From: Panicum virgatum
Lineage: Eukaryota; Streptophyta; Magnoliopsida; Poales; Poaceae
Assembly (NCBI RefSeq): GCF_016808335.1
Contig: NC_053142.1
Location: 48,975,992-49,039,991, forward strand
Direction of reading: 5' to 3'
DNA length: 64,000 nucleotides
Shown: in pieces, positions 21,349 through 62,926 of the stretch
How positions within the stretch are numbered: the stretch's first letter is position 1
Layout of the letters: each line of letters begins with the position of its first letter
Program-made: the position numbers and the translations under genes
The notes under the pieces: generated by a model
The model's input: only the letters and a program-made list of their open reading frames with translations
Told to the model about the DNA's origin: nothing
Database searches by the model: none

Positions 21349-21900
21349 GTAGTCATCCCTCCTCCCGCATGGTCCCGCCCTCTCTCCCGTGCCCTCTCCC
21401 GCGGCGCCTACCTGCCTGCAGGTGACCGCGCCGTCGCCACCGCGCTCCCCAAGGTCGCCAACCGTCACGCTCCCCATTCTTTTAGACCACCTGCTCCAGC
21501 TGCGAGTTTCTCCTACTCGCCAGCGTACAGCTTGTGCGCGCCGGCCGCGAGCCGGAGTCCATGGTGCCAGCATTGCACACAGTGAGCGGGAGGAGGGAGA
21601 GAGGATGGGAGGATAAGAGACGAGAGGATAGGAGAGAGGATGACGTGGAACTGATTTTGATTATAGCCATGATATTTTACCTAGTTAATCTTTTGGATTA
21701 TCTCATAGAATTAGATGATTTTTTATTCTTACAAAGAGGTATAATCTTTAAATTTAGCTAACATAACACATAAACTCTTGGAGACACTCTTACGCCGTAT
21801 GCAGTACAGTGCAACAAACAAATTGTGTGTTTTTAAAATAAAGCCATTCCCAATTTTATTACTCAAAACGGAAATTCGAATAGCTCAAAACTAAACACCA
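21349..21900. other. No gene seen
   Basis: A GC-rich piece (21350-21620) whose beginning resembles part of 18000-18050, then an AT-rich stretch. The part near 21838, 'aaaataaagccattcc', matches the 3' flank of the intact BAHD gene (about 23955), consistent with the tandem duplication. Confidence 0.45.
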
Positions 21901-22403
21901 CTCATCCGACCCGAGCAGCTTGAGGAGCTCCGACTTGAACGCGTCGACGTGCACCCACTGGAGCATGGACACCGCCACCTGCACCCCGCTGCCGTCCCTG
22001 GTGCGGACTAGTGCCACGTGCCCGGCGTGGTTCATCCTCGCGTTTAGGGGCGGAGCCAGCCGATGGAGTCGCCGGTGTCATCTCCATTAGAAAACGTTGT
22101 CAGCTCACTTGATGAACAGAACGTAACAGTGATTTGTCACTAATTTTTTTAATAAAATCATCGTTATCAGCTGACCACGACAAACAGGCCCGGCTCCTCC
22201 CTGCTCACGTTCTCCGTCCGCCACGGCCTCCCCCACCCGAAGTCGGCGACGTCGGACGCCCTGAAGCCCGGCGACCCGGACACGGTCACCACCCGGTCGA
22301 TGGGGGTCCTCCCGTCGCGGGCCAGCTTGAGGAAGTCCCCACCCGGGCGACGAACCCAGCGGGTCCTCCGCCATCTCCCGGATCGCGTCCTGCACCGCCG
22401 CGA
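21901..22403 (-). pseudogene. Truncated BAHD acyltransferase pseudogene
   Basis: On the minus strand this is a diverged copy of the last ~340 coding nt of the intact gene at 24119-25573, covering the region upstream of DFGWG to the C-terminal KSELLKLLGS part. The reading is broken by an inserted 159-bp hAT element (22045-22203) and by small indels (for example an extra C near 22340). The 5' two thirds, including the HxxxD active site, are missing: homology stops at about 22403. With the flank copies at 18880 and 22560 it marks a tandem duplication. Confidence 0.85.
22045..22203. mobile_element. hAT-like MITE (159 bp) in the BAHD pseudogene
   Basis: TIRs TAGGGGCGGAGCC and GGCTCCTCCCTG (inverted). 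Flanked by the 8-bp duplication CTCGCGTT / CTCACGTT, one mismatch. The intact paralogue has a single CTCACGTT at this site, which confirms the insertion point. Confidence 0.85.
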
Positions 22404-23880: not shown

Positions 23881-24118
23881 TCGACCATGGCCGACTCGGC
23901 TAAAATCAGCTAGCTTATCGGATCAGCCGAGCAGTCTCAAAATATCTGTTTTTAATAAAGCCATCCACCATTTCAAATACGACTATTTTCTACAAGAGTA
24001 AAGAGGAGAACAACCACTTGAGCAGGCAGAGCCTCGAGGGGAAGAGTTGAGACATTACAGACAAAAAATGAAACAGTAGGTAACCCACGACTCGAAAAAC
24101 AGCTGACAGAAGGGACAA

Positions 24119-25573
24119 CTACTCATCCGACCCGAGCAGCTTGAGGAGCTCCGACTTGAACGCGTCGACGTGCGCCCGCTGGAGCAAGGACACCGCCACC
24201 TGCACCCCGCCGCCGTCCCTGGCGCGGACCAGCGCCACCTGCCCGTCGTGGTTCATCCTCACGTTCTCCGTCCGCCGCGGCCTCCCCCACCCGAAGTCGG
24301 CGACGTCGTACGCCCTGAAGCCCGCCGACCCGGACACGTTCACCACCCGGTCGATGGGGATCCTCCGGTCGCGGGCCAGCTTGAGGAAGTCCCACCCGGG
24401 CGACGAACCCAGCGGGTCCTCCGCCATCTCCCGGATCGCCTCCTGCACCGCCGCCGCCGCCGCCGCCAGCGCGCGCTCGGCGAGGAGCTCCCGCGCCGGC
24501 AGCTTCACCAGGCAGCAGGTCAGGCACGCGCCGAAGTACTCCGTGCCGGCGGGAGGGTCGAGGCGGTCGCGGGCGTCGGCCAGGAAGAAGAGGAACACGT
24601 CGTCGTCCACCGGGAAGGACCGGCAGCGGACGGCGCAGGTCCATGCTAGCGAGACCACGGCGACGAAGCTGGACGGAGGGCGCCGCAGCGGCGCGCCGTG
24701 GGCCTCGCCGAGGCGGACGATGCGCTGCTTCAGCCGCGCGATGCGCGCCGCGTCCAGGGTGAACGTCCGGCGGGTGAACCGCAGCCGGTCTTGCTTCAAA
24801 ATCGCGGGCATAGGCACCTGGTGGTGTGGTGTAGTGGCAACAAAATCAAAACCCAAATCCAAATGGGAGAGATGTGAAGGAAGCCACATGCGCTGTGCTC
24901 GCGGGAACGCACGTACCACCGGCAGGTCTGGCATGTAGTTCCGCACGACGCTCCGGGCCAGCTCCTCGCCGCCGGGCAGCGCGACACGCGAGCGGTCGAA
25001 GCACGGAGGCGGCTCGGGCGGCGCGTCGCCGCGGCACGCCGCCGCCCAGGCCTCCACGAACCTCCACATCGACCGCCCGTCAGCGACGGCGTGGTGCAGC
25101 GTGAGCCCGAGGGCCACCCCGCCTCCTCCCCCGAGGCGCGTGGCCTGCACGGCCAGCAGCGGCGCCGGCTGCCGGTACATGTCGACCTCCGGAACGAGCC
25201 CCTCGAACGTGACCACGTCGTGGTCCTCGTCGCACGCGAGGCTGCGGGCGTCGGCGTCGGTCTCCGCGACCACGAACCTGACGCCGTCGTCGGCGGCGGA
25301 GCAGCGGATGGCGACCTCGCCGGTCTCCGCGAGGTGATGGAGCTTGCCGGCGAGCGGGGCGTGGGCGGCCAGCGTCGCCGCGAGGGAGGATTTTAGGGAC
25401 CGGACGACGTCGTCGAAGGGCGGCAGCTGGTCGCCCTCGAAGAGCAGGAGGTGCTGCAGCACCGGGGCCACGACCCACTGCACCTCCATGGCGTTGAGCT
25501 TGATAGGCCCGGAAGGCGCCGCCGGCGGCGGCGCGGGAACGTAGGCGACGTCGACGATTCTCACCGGAGCCAT
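24119..25573 (-). CDS. BAHD acyltransferase (phenolic glucoside malonyltransferase-like)
   Basis: Cytosolic acyl-CoA-dependent transferase that acylates plant secondary metabolites; the malonyltransferase-like subgroup and its substrate are inference. The reading frame is open for 484 codons. The catalytic HxxxD is HHAVADG (H161, D165), and the structural motif DFGWG lies at 426-430, 55 residues from the C-terminus, as usual. A probable intron at 24818-24916 (99 nt, GTACGT...ACCAG) is stop-free and in frame. Removing it gives 451 aa, closer to the usual 430-465, and deletes a T-rich stretch of low GC. A second, truncated copy lies at 21901-22403. The start MAPVRIVDVA at 25573 is preferred over in-frame upstream ATGs because it matches the typical short N-terminus of the family. 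Confidence 0.92.
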   Translation of the reverse strand: MAPVRIVDVAYVPAPPPAAPSGPIKLNAMEVQWVVAPVLQHLLLFEGDQLPPFDDVVRSLKSSLAATLAAHAPLAGKLHHLAETGEVAIRCSAADDGVRFVVAETDADARSLACDEDHDVVTFEGLVPEVDMYRQPAPLLAVQATRLGGGGGVALGLTLHHAVADGRSMWRFVEAWAAACRGDAPPEPPPCFDRSRVALPGGEELARSVVRNYMPDLPVVRAFPRAQRMWLPSHLSHLDLGFDFVATTPHHQVPMPAILKQDRLRFTRRTFTLDAARIARLKQRIVRLGEAHGAPLRRPPSSFVAVVSLAWTCAVRCRSFPVDDDVFLFFLADARDRLDPPAGTEYFGACLTCCLVKLPARELLAERALAAAAAAVQEAIREMAEDPLGSSPGWDFLKLARDRRIPIDRVVNVSGSAGFRAYDVADFGWGRPRRTENVRMNHDGQVALVRARDGGGVQVAVSLLQRAHVDAFKSELLKLLGSDE

Positions 25574-29194: not shown

Positions 29195-29682
29195 AATGTT
29201 ATGGGAACTATCTGAATTCGACTCCACGAAGCAATATTGATTAGACACGAGAGCTCAATTTTTTAAATTACACAGTACAATTCTTTTTTTAGTTACACAA
29301 TATAAATTAGACACTCGCAATGCACGCACACTCATCTCTATGAATCCCTATGAGTACACGTATTGAAACTCCACCCATATAAATATTTTTGAAGACTGAG
29401 CCGTCAAATTTTTAAGATTAGCGAAGTCATCATAAACGTCTCTCTATCGATGAAAATATTACCTACCACTGGAAACGTAACATTGTTAAATTGTTACACG
29501 AGAGCTCAAATGCAAAAGACGAAAAAGCGAAAGAGGGAGGCAAAGATGATCGTCTACCCAGTACTCGGCCCAAGAGGCCGAAACAAAAATCATGGCCCCA
29601 TTGCGGCAGGCCAGCAGCCCGCGCAAGACCCACGTGATGGTACGGGCCCATAGGCACAGCGCGCGCAAGGAAGGAGTAGTCC

Positions 29683-29910
29683 GCGCTTTTTTTATTTTTT
29701 TATTTTTTATTTTCGTTTTTTACAAAAATATATTTTCAATATTACAATTTACAGTTTTGTACCCCTACCGCCCTCCTGGGGGGCGGCAGGCCCCCTGCCG
29801 CCCCCTAGGAGGGCGGTAGGGACTTATTTGTAAATAAAAAAAATTTATTTGCGCAGACGCCCTTGGCGGGAGCATGCCGCCCGGTAGGGGGGCGGCAGGC
29901 TCCCCCCTCC
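29683..29910 (+). repeat. Left TIR of the PMD element
   Basis: Matches the reverse complement of about 33580-33805. It contains a self-complementary block (ACCGCCCTCCTGGGGGGCGG ... GGAGGGCGGTAGG, 29765-29821) able to form a strong hairpin. Confidence 0.85.
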
Positions 29911-29911
29911 T

Positions 29912-29919
29912 GTATAAAA
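29912..29919 (+). promoter_or_regulatory. TATA box at the inner edge of the left TIR
   Basis: GTATAAAA at the inner end of the TIR. About 125 nt further on, a 5' UTR intron appears to start at 30046 (CGCAG|GTAACA) and to end at about 30522, just before the start codon at 30525. That intron contains degenerate repeats of 'tgtagaaaatgcagaaaaa'. Confidence 0.6.
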
Positions 29920-30524
29920 GGTTTCCCCTCCCCCCTCCCCCCTCATTTGCTTCCCACGACATCCAGAGAGCGGGAGGGAAAGAGGAGGGGTGAGGGAGGG
30001 AGTTGTAACGGCGAAGCCCTGCCGGATTTTGGATCCTAACCGCAGGTAACAAATATTTCTCAACTTTCTCGATCTAAATTTATTGTATGTTTAATTCTAT
30101 AATTAGTGTAAGCAGCAGTAATAATATTTTAGCGATTTAGGTAATGTTTTTAATATAATTTATGTAGAATTAAGATTAGTTTTTAGAAAAACCAATTAGG
30201 TTTACCAACAAATTTTGTGGTATTGAGTAGTTGTTTAATACGAGAAAATATTGGAAAAATATATTTATAAAATTATATTGTACAAAAATTGTAGGAAATG
30301 CAAGAAAATGTTAGAAAAGTTTATGAAAATTTAAGATTAATTGTAGAAAAATGCAGAAAAATTGTAGAAAATGCAGAAAAATTTAGATAAATTGTAGAAA
30401 ATGTTAGAAAAGTATATGAAACATTCAGATAAATTGTAGGAAATGCAGAAAAATTTAGAAAATATTAGAAAAATGCAGAAAAATTATAGAAAATGCAGAA
30501 AATTTATATTTTTTTGTATTAGGT

Positions 30525-33313
30525 ATGGCCGGAGATACGCCAGCTCTACTTGACGGAGTCATAGACTCGTCGCACCGGTCCTTTCTTGCTGTGGTTCAGC
30601 GCGTGAAACTTAACGTGCTGCGTCCACGTCCACCAGCGGAGTTTATTCCTGTTGAGCCACGATGGGTGCCCAGGTGATATGTCGTCGGATTATGTTTTTA
30701 AAAATTCGTTTGTTTCGTATATGTTTCGTACACGTTTCGTACATAATGTACTTACATTTGATCGTTCTATTTTTCAGGTTGAGTGAGGCTGGTCTTCTTA
30801 CTATAGGTCGTCTTGCTGAGAGTGGTTTAGTACAGCTGGACAGGTCCCTACTGACGGCTCTGGTTGATAGATAGAGGCCTGAGACAAACACCTTTCACCT
30901 CCCTTGTGGGGAGATGACACCGACCCTACAGGACGTTGCGATGCTGCTGGGTCTTCCTATCAGTGGGGATGCCGTAGGGCCTCGTGTCGTCCCGCCTACG
31001 TGGTTGGACGATCTAGAAGAGCGTTTTGCAAATATTGACATCGCGATTGATGTAGAAGAGCACCCAAAAGCAACAGGCCCTGCCAAGGCATGGATCCTCC
31101 AGTTCCAGGTACATACCTTGTTTTGTTACGATTAATGTTAGAGTTATGCTTTTGACTAGTGCAAATATGGTTTTATTTTATAATTGATCTCGTACTCATA
31201 AATGTTCATCTTTTCTATGCAGCCCGACAATTTAGCACATGATGCTGATGATGATAGCGTCACTCGATCCCTTGAGGCATACCTGATGTGGTTGTTTGGA
31301 TACATAATGTTCAACAACTCACACGGGGCCTATGTGGATAGGGTGCTTGTGCCTTACGCACTGGAGATCGCAGAGGCAGCTGTGGAGGAAATGCCTCAAT
31401 ACAGTTGGGGTGCAGCGGTACTTGCAGCCACGTACCGTGGCCTCTGCAAGGCATCGGTGCAAAATAAACACAATGCAATTCTTACAGGTTGTCCAATTCT
31501 GCTACAACTTTGGTCGTACGAGAGGATAGCAATTGGTCGCCCGCTTATCGACCACTCACCGTATGAGCTGGATATGTACGGTGACACCGAGGACGATAGG
31601 CCCACCATGGGGACTGTCTGGTACGCTCGTCAGGTACGGAAATGACTGCTACTCGTACTATTCTGTTGGCAATTCTGTTGCTTTGTTTTACCCTCTTTGT
31701 ATTTCTTATTTGTACATATTATTATTAATTTTGTGCAGAAGAGGTGGGCCCACGTACAGTCTCGTCGGGCCTATCCTGATTTTGTGGCTGAGTTTGATTG
31801 GTTGACACCTGAAGACGTCGTGTGGGAGCCCTACTCCGAGTTGGCTATAAACACTCGTGCACCGATCGGGATATCTTCGGTTTGCTTTCAGGACCAGGCC
31901 TTATGGATGACAACTACAGCGTTGGTGTACGACGTTTACATTGAGGCTCACTGCCCGGACAGAGTCAGGAGACAGTTCGGTCAAAGGCAATTGTATCCTG
32001 TGCCGTCAGCATTGGATCGGGTCGAACGCCATGACCACAGGTAACAATTCATATACTATTTCAGTGACTATGCATTGTATGGTTAACTAATCATATTTGA
32101 CTAAATTATTTTCAATATTTAGTTTATCGAGGACTGGGCAACCCTTCTCCAACATGTGGGTGACAAGGGTGCAGCCTTGGGTCGATGCCTGGGACCAGGC
32201 AGAGGAGAACGTGGCGCTTGCGACCCCTGCACACACGGAGGCTTCGTACAGGGCGTACCTGAGCTGGTACCTGCCTCAGACTCGTTGCCGCTTGATATAT
32301 GCTGACAAGCAACCACAGCCGCATGTTGCGACAGCACAGGATGGGTACGCACGACATAGGGATGAAGCATTAGCTGGGGCGGTGAGTCAAAGTTATCATC
32401 GCTTTTCAAATACTTTGGATTACAGTGTTAATGTCTTTTTTTTCTTGCTTGCAGTTTGAAATATGCAGGTTGATGGACTTAGATGCCAGGGCGAATTTGA
32501 TGAGGATTCGAGGGGGATCTATGATGGATAGGAATGAGCAAGAGTCGGCCTGGATCCGAGTTTCACAAAGAGCCCATTCCATGCTTGAAGCCTTTGGTAG
32601 CCGGACATCGTACGATGACTCGTACGGTTCGTCTCAAGCCTCGACCTCGTTTCCTTGTGTTCCCACACAGCAGCAGTCTTCCCAAGCACCTTATTGGTCT
32701 CAGCAGCATTATCCAGGTACGTGAGGATACTTACTAACTTCCTACTTCGAAGCCAACAATTAATTCTCAGTGCATACAGGTGATGCACACCCACCTTACC
32801 AACCTCACGGAGGGACTCAGTTTAGTACCATGGCACCAGCTGCAGGGATGTCATTTCAACCAACGGCGACAGCAGAAGGAACGCAAGGTAAATACCTAAT
32901 CTGTAGCCCGAATTTATAATGTGCTTCTTATCTGTATGAATATTTTAAATAATTTGAACGGTTTACAGGATCGCACCACCAGCTTCCTGATATGGGTCAT
33001 TCATCGTATCCACCACCACCAGGTACGTATGATGAATATATATCAAAATATATGACTTATAAGACGATGATTAAGATATCTTAATTGCTACTGTATAGGG
33101 CCCACACAGGATACCTTTGAGGCGAACTTTGAAGATTGGAGTCGGTTATTTTCTACACCTAACCCGCAGGCCGATACTATCTTCCAGACACCTGTGCCCA
33201 CCGGACATCCAGGTAGAGACGTAGGGCCTCCAGAGCGACACACCTACTCTACAGACCACGTCCACGCTCAACGTAAAAGAGGTCGACATGGCCGGGGTGG
33301 CCGGGGTGGTTAG
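30525..33313 (+). pseudogene. Plant mobile domain (PMD) protein gene, stop codon in exon 2
   Basis: PMD proteins occur as host genes (MAIN/MAIL group, genome stability and silencing) and inside transposons (family knowledge). Nine exons by GT-AG: 30525-30673, 30778-31108, 31223-31633, 31739-32040, 32123-32381, 32455-32716, 32780-32887, 32969-33022, 33099-33313. PMD signatures are LSEAGLLTIGRLAESGLVQL, HLPCGEMTPTLQDVAMLLGL and WLDDLEERF. The C-terminus is Gln/Ser/Pro-rich and ends in an Arg/Gly tail (RGRHGRGGRGG). In exon 2 an in-frame TAG (30872-30874) replaces the Trp codon usual in 'DRWRPET'. Everything downstream stays open and splice sites are intact, so the break is a single recent nonsense change. 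Without read-through the protein stops after about 81 aa. Confidence 0.85.
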
Positions 33314-33579
33314 GATGTGCTTCTAGCTGTTTCTGTATTTTTGTTATGGATATGTCATCATGTTATACTTATTTCGTTCTCATACATCACCTATTTCGTT
33401 CTCATTTGCGTATGTGTGTGAATTGCTAGCTTATATTTTTCATATTCATATTCTTTACTAATGGTTTTTTATTTGTATTCATATCTAAAACACATTTAAT
33501 GGGCACAGCGGGCAGGGCAATATGTCGGGGAGCCTGCCGCCCCCCTGCCGGGCGGCAGGCCCCCTGCCGCCCAGTGGAG

Positions 33580-33805
33580 TGGCGGCAGGGGGCCTGCCAC
33601 CCGGCAGGGGGGCGGCAGGCTCCCGCCAAGGGCGTCCGAGCAAATAATTTTTTTATTTACAAATAAGTCCCTACCGCCCTCCTGGGGGCGGCAGGCCACC
33701 TGCCGCCCCCCAGGAGGGCGGTAGGGGTACAAAACTGTAAAATGTAATATTGAAAATATATTTTTGTAAAAAACGAAAATAAAAAATATAAAAATAAAAA
33801 AGCGC
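33580..33805 (-). repeat. Right TIR of the PMD element
   Basis: Inverted copy of 29683-29910. The adjoining inner part (33530-33640) holds further CCTGCCGCC/GGCGGCAGG palindromes, so the right end is longer and more GC-rich than the left. Confidence 0.85.
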
Positions 33806-34190
33806 GAGTAGTCCAGCCCCAACACGGGCCGGCTGGCCGGTCAGTCCAGCTGCAGCACCGGGTAATTTCTTAAGCAGTCAAGCTCCATGGCCGTTCCTGC
33901 GCCCCACATGGCTCCGCTCCCCTCGCCCTCGCCGCGTTAGTCCAGCGGGTATCTCGTCGGGAACGATGCACGGTCGCCACGCAAGCCATCAGGGAGGAGC
34001 GCGCACGCACACGCTCTGCCGATACAAAAGTTGCACGAGGTCACGAGGCGTTGGAAGGAGAGTTCGATAGGTTGTGCCCTCCAGTGTGGCGGAGCCACGG
34101 CCCGGGCTGCCCGTGCTTCACTTCACCCCGGGTTCTTGACCTAAAAATACATGGAAACTTGATTTTGTGTACAAACATGTCAGTAGTGAT

Positions 34191-34357
34191 CAGCGGCGGG
34201 TCCAGCAGGGGGGCTAGGGGGCTCCAGCCCCACTAAGCTCCCCTAATTACACGTAAAACACTGTAGCAAAAGCATCAAATCACTATTAAATTTTCACACA
34301 AATCAACATCTCCATTGTTTCAGCCCCCCCTTGCCTCTCATCCTGCATCCGCCACTG
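34191..34357. mobile_element. hAT-like MITE (167 bp)
   Basis: Ends CAGCGGCGGGTCC and GGATCCGCCACTG-type (GCATCCGCCACTG) inverted repeats, with a perfect 8-bp duplication GTAGTGAT at 34183-34190 and 34358-34365. Same family as 22045, 22657 and 52330. Confidence 0.9.
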
Positions 34358-34519: not shown

Positions 34520-35515
34520 TAAAGTGAAAAGTCCATTTGACCTCCTGAACTTGTCACCGAATCTGAAAAACACCTCTGAACTCAAAAACCAGAAATCTTA
34601 CATACCTAAACTTTCAATACCGACTAAATTACCCCCTTGACCACGTCGAAGCTGTTTTGTTGTTGGTGGTTTTGCTGATGTGGCACGTGTGGGTCCCACA
34701 TGTCACTATTTTTTTCCACATCACCTCCTCTGCCTCCCCCCTCTCTCACTGACTGAGCAGCCCCACATGTCAGCCCTTCTTCCACCTCCAGACCCCCTCC
34801 ACCGCCGACGCCCCTGCTCTTCCGGTCACCTCCCTCCAGCCTCCGGTGGCGCCCCCCTCCTCTCCTGTCATCCGCACACGGCGCGCGGCGCGAGCGCAAA
34901 GGAGGAGCCCGCGGCGGGACTAGCGGGCCAGGCTTGCCCGCGGCGTGGGCTCAGCGGCCTGCGGATGCAGGAGGCACACGCACGTGCAAGGCGGCTCGCG
35001 CGGGCGGAGCGGGAGCAGGGGCGGCGGAAGCTTCGCGCAGGAAGGGGGAAGGCAAGGGCCCAACAGCGCGCGGATCCAGCGGCGGCGGTGCGGGCGGGCG
35101 TGCGGGGGAGGGGGGGTGCGGCGCGGAGCAAGGCGGCCTCGGGCAGCGGCGGCGTGCGCGCAGGCGAGGCGGTTGGGGGAGGAGGCGGCGCGCCGGGCGC
35201 GCGGTCTGCGGGCAAGGAGCAGGGTGCACGGGTGCCCAGCTCGTGTGCGCCAGGAGGAAGAAGGGCTGACGTGTGGGGCCACTCAGTCGGTGAGAGAGAG
35301 GGGAGGAAGCGGAGGTGATGTGGCAAAAAAATAGTGATATGTGGGATCCACATGTGCCACATCAGCAAAACCACCAACAAAACAGTTTTGACGTGGTCAA
35401 GGGGCGTAATTTGGCTGGTATTGAAAGTTTAGGTATGTAAGATTTCTCGTTTTTGAGTTCAGGGGTATTTTTTAGATTTGGTGACAAGTTCAGAGGGGGT
35501 TAAATAATATGCCAA
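34520..35515. mobile_element. Long-TIR element with GC-rich core (Pack-MULE-like)
   Basis: Arms of about 270 bp are inverted copies. 34545-34790 ('tgaacttgtcacc', 'aaatcttacatacctaaact', 'ggttttgctgatgtggcac') pairs with 35270-35500. The core (34800-35260) is very GC-rich, with open frames on both strands but no recognisable domain. The layout resembles a Pack-MULE with a captured GC-rich fragment. I could not fix the exact ends or a clean duplication (possible ATCAAG repeats outside). Confidence 0.7.
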
Positions 35516-53159: not shown

Positions 53160-53303
53160 GGCACGCTCGGCGGTCGCCTCCGGCACTCACCGCTACTCCA
53201 CTGCCAACCAACCATAGTAGGCAAGCAAGGCAATTCATCACCGAAAAAATCATCGTACTAGCTAGCAGCACGCAGAGCACAAGCTACGAGATCATCGTCG
53301 TCC

Positions 53304-53609
53304 ATGGCCAACTTCGCCGCTCAGCTCAAGGACAAGCTCCTCGGCCTCGTCGACCGCGTCGTCAGCTGCGGCGGCCGCGGCGCCTGCGCAAACAAGGATG
53401 TACCGGAGGCGCCCGCCAAGTTGCCAAATGTTCAGGTGTGCTTGCTTCATCAGAATCGCCTACGAGTTCCTGTCAATTACTCCTCACATGCTTCTGCTAC
53501 ATCCATGGATCGCTGACTTGTACTGTGGCACCGTTTACTTTTGCAGCCCATTGCGATCAAGCCGAGAGATCCCAACGTGAGCCAAGGATCAAAGCCCGGC
53601 TTCAACTGA
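53304..53609 (+). CDS. Tiny two-exon protein of unknown function (64 aa)
   Basis: Exon 1 is 53304-53435 (44 codons), donor CAG|GTGTGC. Exon 2 is 53547-53609 (20 codons plus TGA), acceptor TTTGCAG|CCC. The N-terminus is MANFAAQLKDKLLGLVDRVV, an amphipathic helix. A Cys/Gly-rich link (CGGRGAC), the block KDVPEAPAKLPNVQ and a polar tail ending KPGFN follow. No signal peptide or membrane segment. The gene is real by structure: TATA box, splice sites, and a paralogue at 62852-63868 with the same exon break after ...VQ. I do not recognise a characterised family. Confidence 0.82.
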
Positions 53610-62631: not shown

Positions 62632-62755
62632 AGCTCCCTTATTCAGTTCTTGCAGGTCTAGCGCCCCTGGCTACACACCCAACTAATTCCATCAGCTCCC
62701 TTATTCAGTTCTTGCAGGTCTAGCGCCCCTGGCTACACACCCAACTAATTCCATC
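62632..62755. repeat. Exact 62-bp tandem duplication upstream of the small gene
   Basis: Two identical 62-bp units starting 'agctcccttattcagttctt' and ending 'aactaattccatc'. They lie about 100-220 nt before the start codon of the disrupted small gene, in its promoter or 5' UTR. Confidence 0.95.
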
Positions 62756-62926
62756 AGCTAATTAATTTAGCTCGATCGGGAGGCAGTAGCACCGCTGCCT
62801 ACACATATACTAGCAACGACAAATTAAAGCTCTTCTATCTAGTCCAAACCCATGGCTAACTTCGCTGCTCAAATCAAGGACAAGTTCCTCGGCCTCGTCG
62901 ACCGCGTCGCCGGCTGCGGCCGCGCC

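Follow-up and report, generated by a model that had tools for sequence, protein, structure and literature searches.

Why does a transposable element that encodes no transposase carry a multi-exon plant gene between its ends? This question is raised by positions 29683-33805 of a 64,000-nucleotide stretch of Panicum virgatum contig NC_053142.1 (hereafter, the window), where a gene for a plant mobile domain (PMD) protein fills the interior of an element with long terminal inverted repeats (TIRs). PMD is a domain of unknown function (PMC8616336) that both parties to the transposon-host conflict possess: host silencing proteins contain it, and so do retrotransposons and Mutator-like elements (MULEs) (PMC5418596). 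The explanation that we favor overall, with moderate confidence, is that the element is a defective, non-autonomous copy of a grass MULE from a lineage with a PMD accessory gene that acts by a mechanism similar to that of VANC proteins. The element itself is an ordinary, broken, non-autonomous member of an already known kind, and the point of interest is the protein link.

The boundaries of the element, which spans 4,123 bp, are defined by the following features.

29674..29682, no strand: left 9-bp target-site duplication GAGTAGTCC, exact match
29683..29905, plus strand: left TIR, 223 bp, AT-rich outside, with two GC-rich palindromes inside
33588..33805, minus strand: right TIR, 218 bp, delimited by alignment to the left TIR
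33806..33814, no strand: right 9-bp target-site duplication GAGTAGTCC, exact match

The 9-mer GAGTAGTCC adjoins both ends of the element immediately on the outside, as the initial sequence-only reading had noticed, and these are its only two plus-strand copies in the window, with none on the minus strand; by simple arithmetic, two given 9-mers match by chance with a probability of 4^-9. The TIRs, put at about 225 bp in the same reading, align at 93% identity, gaps aside (203 matching and 15 mismatching positions, plus 5 gap columns), with a score of 340, against 0 or less for 300 random inverted pairs of 223-bp segments of the window, the left TIR having been fixed at 223 bp and the right end optimized over 30 positions, an optimization that the controls did not receive. 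Target-site duplications of Mutator-like elements are 8-11 bp long (PMC6446971), so that the 9-bp duplication, along with the long TIRs, places the element in this superfamily.

The sequence-only reading also saw no transposase domain, and both a six-frame Pfam search of the element, in which PMD alone scored above the cut-off, and a tblastn search of the window with the transposase parts of six relatives, from which no transposase was accepted, agree with it. Only two tblastn matches had E-values below 0.01 (7e-5 and 0.002), both over the start of the PMD gene, at which the transposase query pieces overlap it; all others had E-values of at least 0.1. The better of the two continues for some 90 bp further upstream, across a stop codon and into a lysine-rich reading of the intron repeat, an extension that we take as chance. 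With no transposase found, the element is at most a non-autonomous member of the superfamily, and its earlier description as Mutator-like, non-autonomous and bearing a PMD gene is upheld.

The PMD gene was modeled as follows.

29913..29920, plus strand: TATA box TATAAAAG at the inner edge of the left TIR, read from the sequence
29945..30045, plus strand: inferred 5' untranslated region (UTR) exon, its start guessed from the TATA position, its end (CAG/GTAACA) fitting the splice consensus
30046..30522, plus strand: inferred 5' UTR intron, with the acceptor TTAG/GT-ATG 2 nt ahead of the start codon
30525..33313, plus strand: PMD gene, nine coding exons with in-frame joins, Pfam PF10536
30525-30673, 30778-31108, 31223-31633, 31739-32040 and 32123-32381, plus strand: exons 1-5
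32455-32716, 32780-32887, 32969-33022 and 33099-33313, plus strand: exons 6-9
30872..30874, plus strand: premature in-frame TAG within the PMD domain, tryptophan in most relatives

The exon model is a prediction, in which the coding sequence runs from the ATG at 30525 to the final TAG at 33311-33313 and the eight introns that interrupt it all have GT/AG borders; the predicted 696-aa protein, with the internal stop read as X, matches PF10536 at 201.9 bits (cut-off 34.9; E-value 2.1e-59). Thus, the TATA box, the in-frame exons and the domain assignment of the earlier reading stand, but that reading overlooked the TAG at 30872-30874, which breaks the frame, so that, barring readthrough, no full PMD protein comes from the window copy. 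Among the 53 aligned relatives, 49 have a residue in this column, and in 46 of these it is tryptophan; P0001, a 96% identical protein, has the tryptophan and no stop. The window copy keeps 70 of the 72 conserved columns (conservation of 90% or more, with a residue in 40 or more relatives), the exceptions being the stop itself and one substitution common to P0001. Given these conserved positions and the GT/AG borders, the decay looks recent, and apart from the stop, the gene looks fresh. We considered P0001 as a spliced transcript and dropped the idea: its contig, at 1647 bases, is exactly as long as the genomic stretch of the window between the ATG and codon 414 with the four introns (405 bases) counted in, so that P0001 most likely represents a gene model made on genomic DNA and does not attest to transcription or splicing.

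Out of 5.8 billion proteins searched, scoring was confined to the 7,995 candidates with the most words in common, and it returned 96 PMD homologs; 91 of these are named, namely 90 grass proteins and one of the sedge Rhynchospora, and five are unnamed. Mutator-type transposase sequence lies upstream of PMD in 43 of the 96 (blastp with six transposase parts, themselves taken from six of the 43 positives), whereas the predicted proteins of the other 53 show none. In a tree of 93 rows, the window protein plus 92 homologs (P0081, P0091, P0092 and P0093 were left out for short cover), built by a quick method with SH-aLRT support only and without host PMD genes, the window protein and P0001 fall in a 31-row clade (SH-aLRT 99), in which 14 rows have transposase and the other 17 show none in the predicted protein; the next clade outward comprises 44 rows, 25 of them with transposase (support 98). 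The transposase label changes 22 times on the tree, compared to a mean of 30.8 for shuffled labels, and is therefore clustered, yet does not form one clade. The window PMD groups with transposase-associated PMDs, and the element is almost certainly a non-autonomous MULE of a PMD-bearing lineage. In the published record, PMD is listed as an additional open reading frame (ORF) in several plant MULE groups, sometimes or often in antisense orientation (PMC6446971), and PMDs of grass MULEs have been described, with capture from host genes proposed to have occurred earlier in evolution (PMC5418596). With MULE PMDs already published and transposase upstream in 43 of the 96 homologs, the earlier suggestion that PMD is cargo acquired by this element finds no support, and judging from the sequence comparisons, the gene is not evidently fresh cargo.

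The PMDs of grass MULEs have been described as transposase fusions, with their transposable element association confirmed by gene prediction (PMC5418596). Among 34 transposase-joined proteins with an alignable PMD start, 32 have a methionine within about 5 residues of that start, which in most cases lies inside the joined protein where the PMD part begins, and for 30 of the 32, a reference transposase could be aligned with the upstream part, the last aligned residue ranging from 109 to 640. The point at which PMD starts after the transposase sequence is about the same in the proteins from rice, Paspalum and Lolium. An acceptor of the form TTAG/GT-ATG gives a glycine if the upstream exon ends in G, which we offer as an explanation for the glycine that precedes the methionine in some of these proteins. 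From the own ATG next to a splice acceptor and the grouping with MULE-borne PMDs, we infer that PMD is probably a separate accessory gene, not part of a transposase fusion, and that many of the fusions are likely gene-model joins of two genes; the listing of PMD as an additional ORF agrees with separate genes (PMC6446971). Against this stand the low frequency of the glycine (only 11 of the 32, the other residues being E, D, R and K, with V, I, N and Y once each) and one doubtful methionine among the 32, that of P0031.

What could such an accessory gene do? By comparison of predicted structures, PMD relatives match VANC21, the sole clear match, and on the strength of these models, PMD probably shares the VANC fold. 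VIA-align covered the top 121 and 38 chains from Foldseek, and other folds are possible beyond those. The alternative that PMD is a hidden RNase H-like transposase was not favored, both models being mainly helical with few short strands. VANC21 binds the motif YAGTATTAY, and its targets are often tandem repeats in the non-coding DNA of VANDAL21 (PMC5735166). Papers with both PMD and VANC terms exist, but among the open-licence papers listed by the literature searches, we found no statement of PMD-VANC homology or of a shared fold, and none is made in the available portions of PMC8616336, PMC6446971, PMC6419827, PMC5735166 and PMC10398659; the paper on the VANC21 structure 9lnj itself, which we did not find, may state it, and unpublished VANC-DNA structures were presented at a 2025 meeting (PMC12859917).

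Non-coding repeats that could serve as targets are present within the element.

29763..29821, no strand: left TIR palindrome of CCTACCGCC/CCTGCCGCC units, 28-nt arms, 96% complementary
29868..29905, no strand: second, shorter left TIR palindrome
33527..33627, no strand: long nested palindrome at the inner edge of the right TIR, 44-nt arms, 98% complementary
33669..33727, no strand: right TIR palindrome, counterpart of 29763-29821
30284..30502, plus strand: degenerate tandem repeat in the 5' UTR intron, 72-bp period, 3.1 copies
30303-30502, plus strand: 30-bp period, 6.5 copies, within this repeat

The single-strand folding z scores are -10 for 29750-29910 and -17.6 for 33515-33735. In the left TIR, the inner palindrome (29868-29905) resembles a shortened version of that at 33527-33627, as if its center had been lost. 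Candidate arrays for binding by PMD are the TIR palindromes built from CCTRCCRCC or, alternatively, the tandem repeat in the 5' UTR intron; 15 of the 17 window matches to CCTRCCRCC on either strand fall within the palindromes of the TIR regions, a count that has to be read with the facts that the motif was picked after the palindromes were seen and that palindromes count on both strands.

Under the favored explanation, an intact PMD protein would be produced from the TIR promoter and would bind short repeated motifs in the non-coding DNA of the element, keeping the element family unmethylated and transcribable; transposase from another copy would move the element, and the window copy, with neither transposase nor full-length PMD, would move only in trans. 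That PMD might modulate silencing was suggested in the sequence-only reading, and anti-silencing by MULE PMDs had been speculated on before (PMC8616336, PMC5418596); the predicted fold match with VANC21 strengthens the idea; the window copy itself has a premature stop. That PMD is a sequence-specific anti-silencing factor is a view that we take only tentatively. Bolder and slightly more doubtful is the possibility that a single superfamily of DNA-binding proteins, made by transposons, has PMD and VANC as two of its branches, in which MULE PMDs would be sequence-specific anti-silencers acting on their own palindromic or tandem motifs and MAIN and MAIL1 would be domesticated relatives turned from de-repressor to repressor. 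The predicted shared fold gives PMD a testable role, sequence-specific DNA binding and anti-silencing with a named candidate target DNA, and if true, would explain the retention of PMD by plant MULEs and suggest an origin for MAIN and MAIL1.

Several observations weigh against this explanation. The TM-scores to VANC21 in Foldseek are modest (0.30-0.46, with root-mean-square deviations of 14.4 and 8.0 Å) and the structural alignments show 8-9% identity; PMD profiles did not match the 9lnj structure among the PDB sequences, and neither these profiles nor P0096 found anything credible there. The profile expected of VANC proteins, DUF1985, did not reach its cut-off in any of the 53 homologs scanned among the 96, the best score being 21.8 bits against 35.1, in P0096, the only one with a match, and the window protein had none. 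A protein search for a DUF1985 bridge yielded 7 matches, all of them PMD proteins including P0096 and all 7 with a weak DUF1985 match below the cut-off, but these form one close group that was itself found through the stretch matching DUF1985. A shared fold alone demonstrates neither DNA binding nor anti-silencing, and another possible role of the hairpin units is as sites for transposase or as sources of small interfering RNA. No transcript was seen for any of the PMD copies, and with the window as the only plant DNA covered, neither recurring TIRs nor an autonomous partner came to light.

Other roles of the gene have to be weighed against the same evidence. The PMD of the element could mimic host proteins and disturb the MAIN/MAIL1-PP7L silencing pathway without binding element DNA, in line with the action of host PMD proteins in transposon silencing and with proposals that PMDs made by transposable elements counter silencing (PMC8616336, PMC5418596); that the modeled fold matches a protein crystallized with its target DNA favors DNA binding, and we consider mimicry unlikely as well as not mutually exclusive with the favored explanation. 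Less likely again is a transposition co-factor acting in integration rather than silencing, for which MuDR, whose mudrB is apparently required for integration (PMC6446971), is the precedent: PMD occupies an accessory-gene position and the palindromic TIR units could serve as protein-binding sites, but the single clear fold match is to an anti-silencing protein.

Two further alternatives concern the history of this copy. The window gene might be a decaying remnant without a current role in an internal-deletion derivative, as the premature TAG and the missing transposase would suggest; with 70 of 72 conserved positions and all eight pairs of intron borders intact and a 96% identical relative free of the stop, we regard this as somewhat unlikely, and it can be reconciled with the favored explanation, which concerns the family. 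Least probable is a Pack-MULE that itself captured a host PMD gene, introns included, as passenger DNA. The retained introns, the known capture of genes by MULEs (PMC5418596), the presence of PMD genes in the host lineage and the 53 homologs with no transposase in the predicted protein, which also count against a MULE-borne accessory gene, would fit such a capture, but the window PMD is nested among transposase-joined members in a clade with support (in a tree without host PMD genes), the start of PMD after the transposase is about constant in rice, Paspalum and Lolium, and several MULE groups are listed with PMD as an additional ORF (PMC6446971).

Elsewhere in the window, a second TIR structure (34545-35493; 92-nt arms, 90% complementary, left end CCTCCTGAACTTGTCACC) starts 731 bp to the right of the right duplication of the PMD element, with no clear target duplication read. 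Pieces of 21897-22401 and 24118-24454, about 2 kb apart, are 93-98% identical, which suggests a local duplication; the ORF holding the latter is, we assume, acyltransferase-like, of the BAHD type. A 62-bp unit is perfectly duplicated head to tail at 62632-62755, a 74-bp coding-like stretch is repeated with 89% identity 9.5 kb apart (53302-53375 and 62850-62923), and an mTERF-type ORF shares 93% identity with a protein of Panicum hallii. An Rfam search over 29400-34200 gave 17 matches (E-values up to 1), none at the gathering score. The TIR palindrome pattern had 0 matches in viral contigs, and the PMD alignment pattern hit 13 stretches in viral contigs and 7 in genome contigs, none a relative; because these collections comprise viruses, bacteria and archaea, the results are uninformative on grasses.

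Among known systems, the closest are the PMD-carrying plant MULEs of groups 42 and 45-50 (PMC6446971) and the PMD-C MULEs (PMC5418596), with which the window element has in common PMD as an extra ORF, the MuDR-type transposase lineage and, for many of the groups, the 9-bp duplication and TIRs measuring tens to hundreds of bp; unlike them, the window copy has the PMD gene alone, directed inward from the left TIR and broken by a stop, and no transposase. VANDAL21 is an Arabidopsis MULE with VANC21 as its sequence-specific anti-silencing protein; the window element differs from VANDALs, in which TIRs are short, degenerate or absent, by its long TIRs, and its PMD differs from VANC21 in the lack of a direct sequence match, in the candidate motif and in having a function that is only predicted. 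MAIN and MAIL1 have the plant mobile domain in common with the element protein but are host genes, not element-borne, and are reported to promote silencing, which speaks against an anti-silencing role of PMD. The TIRs of MuDR are about 220 bp long, and the window element resembles MuDR (mudrA, mudrB) in its Mutator type, long TIRs and accessory second gene but has no mudrA. Like Pack-MULEs, it is a non-autonomous MULE with another gene aboard and no transposase; unlike in Pack-MULEs, that gene groups with MULE-borne PMDs and is not evidently a freshly captured host fragment.
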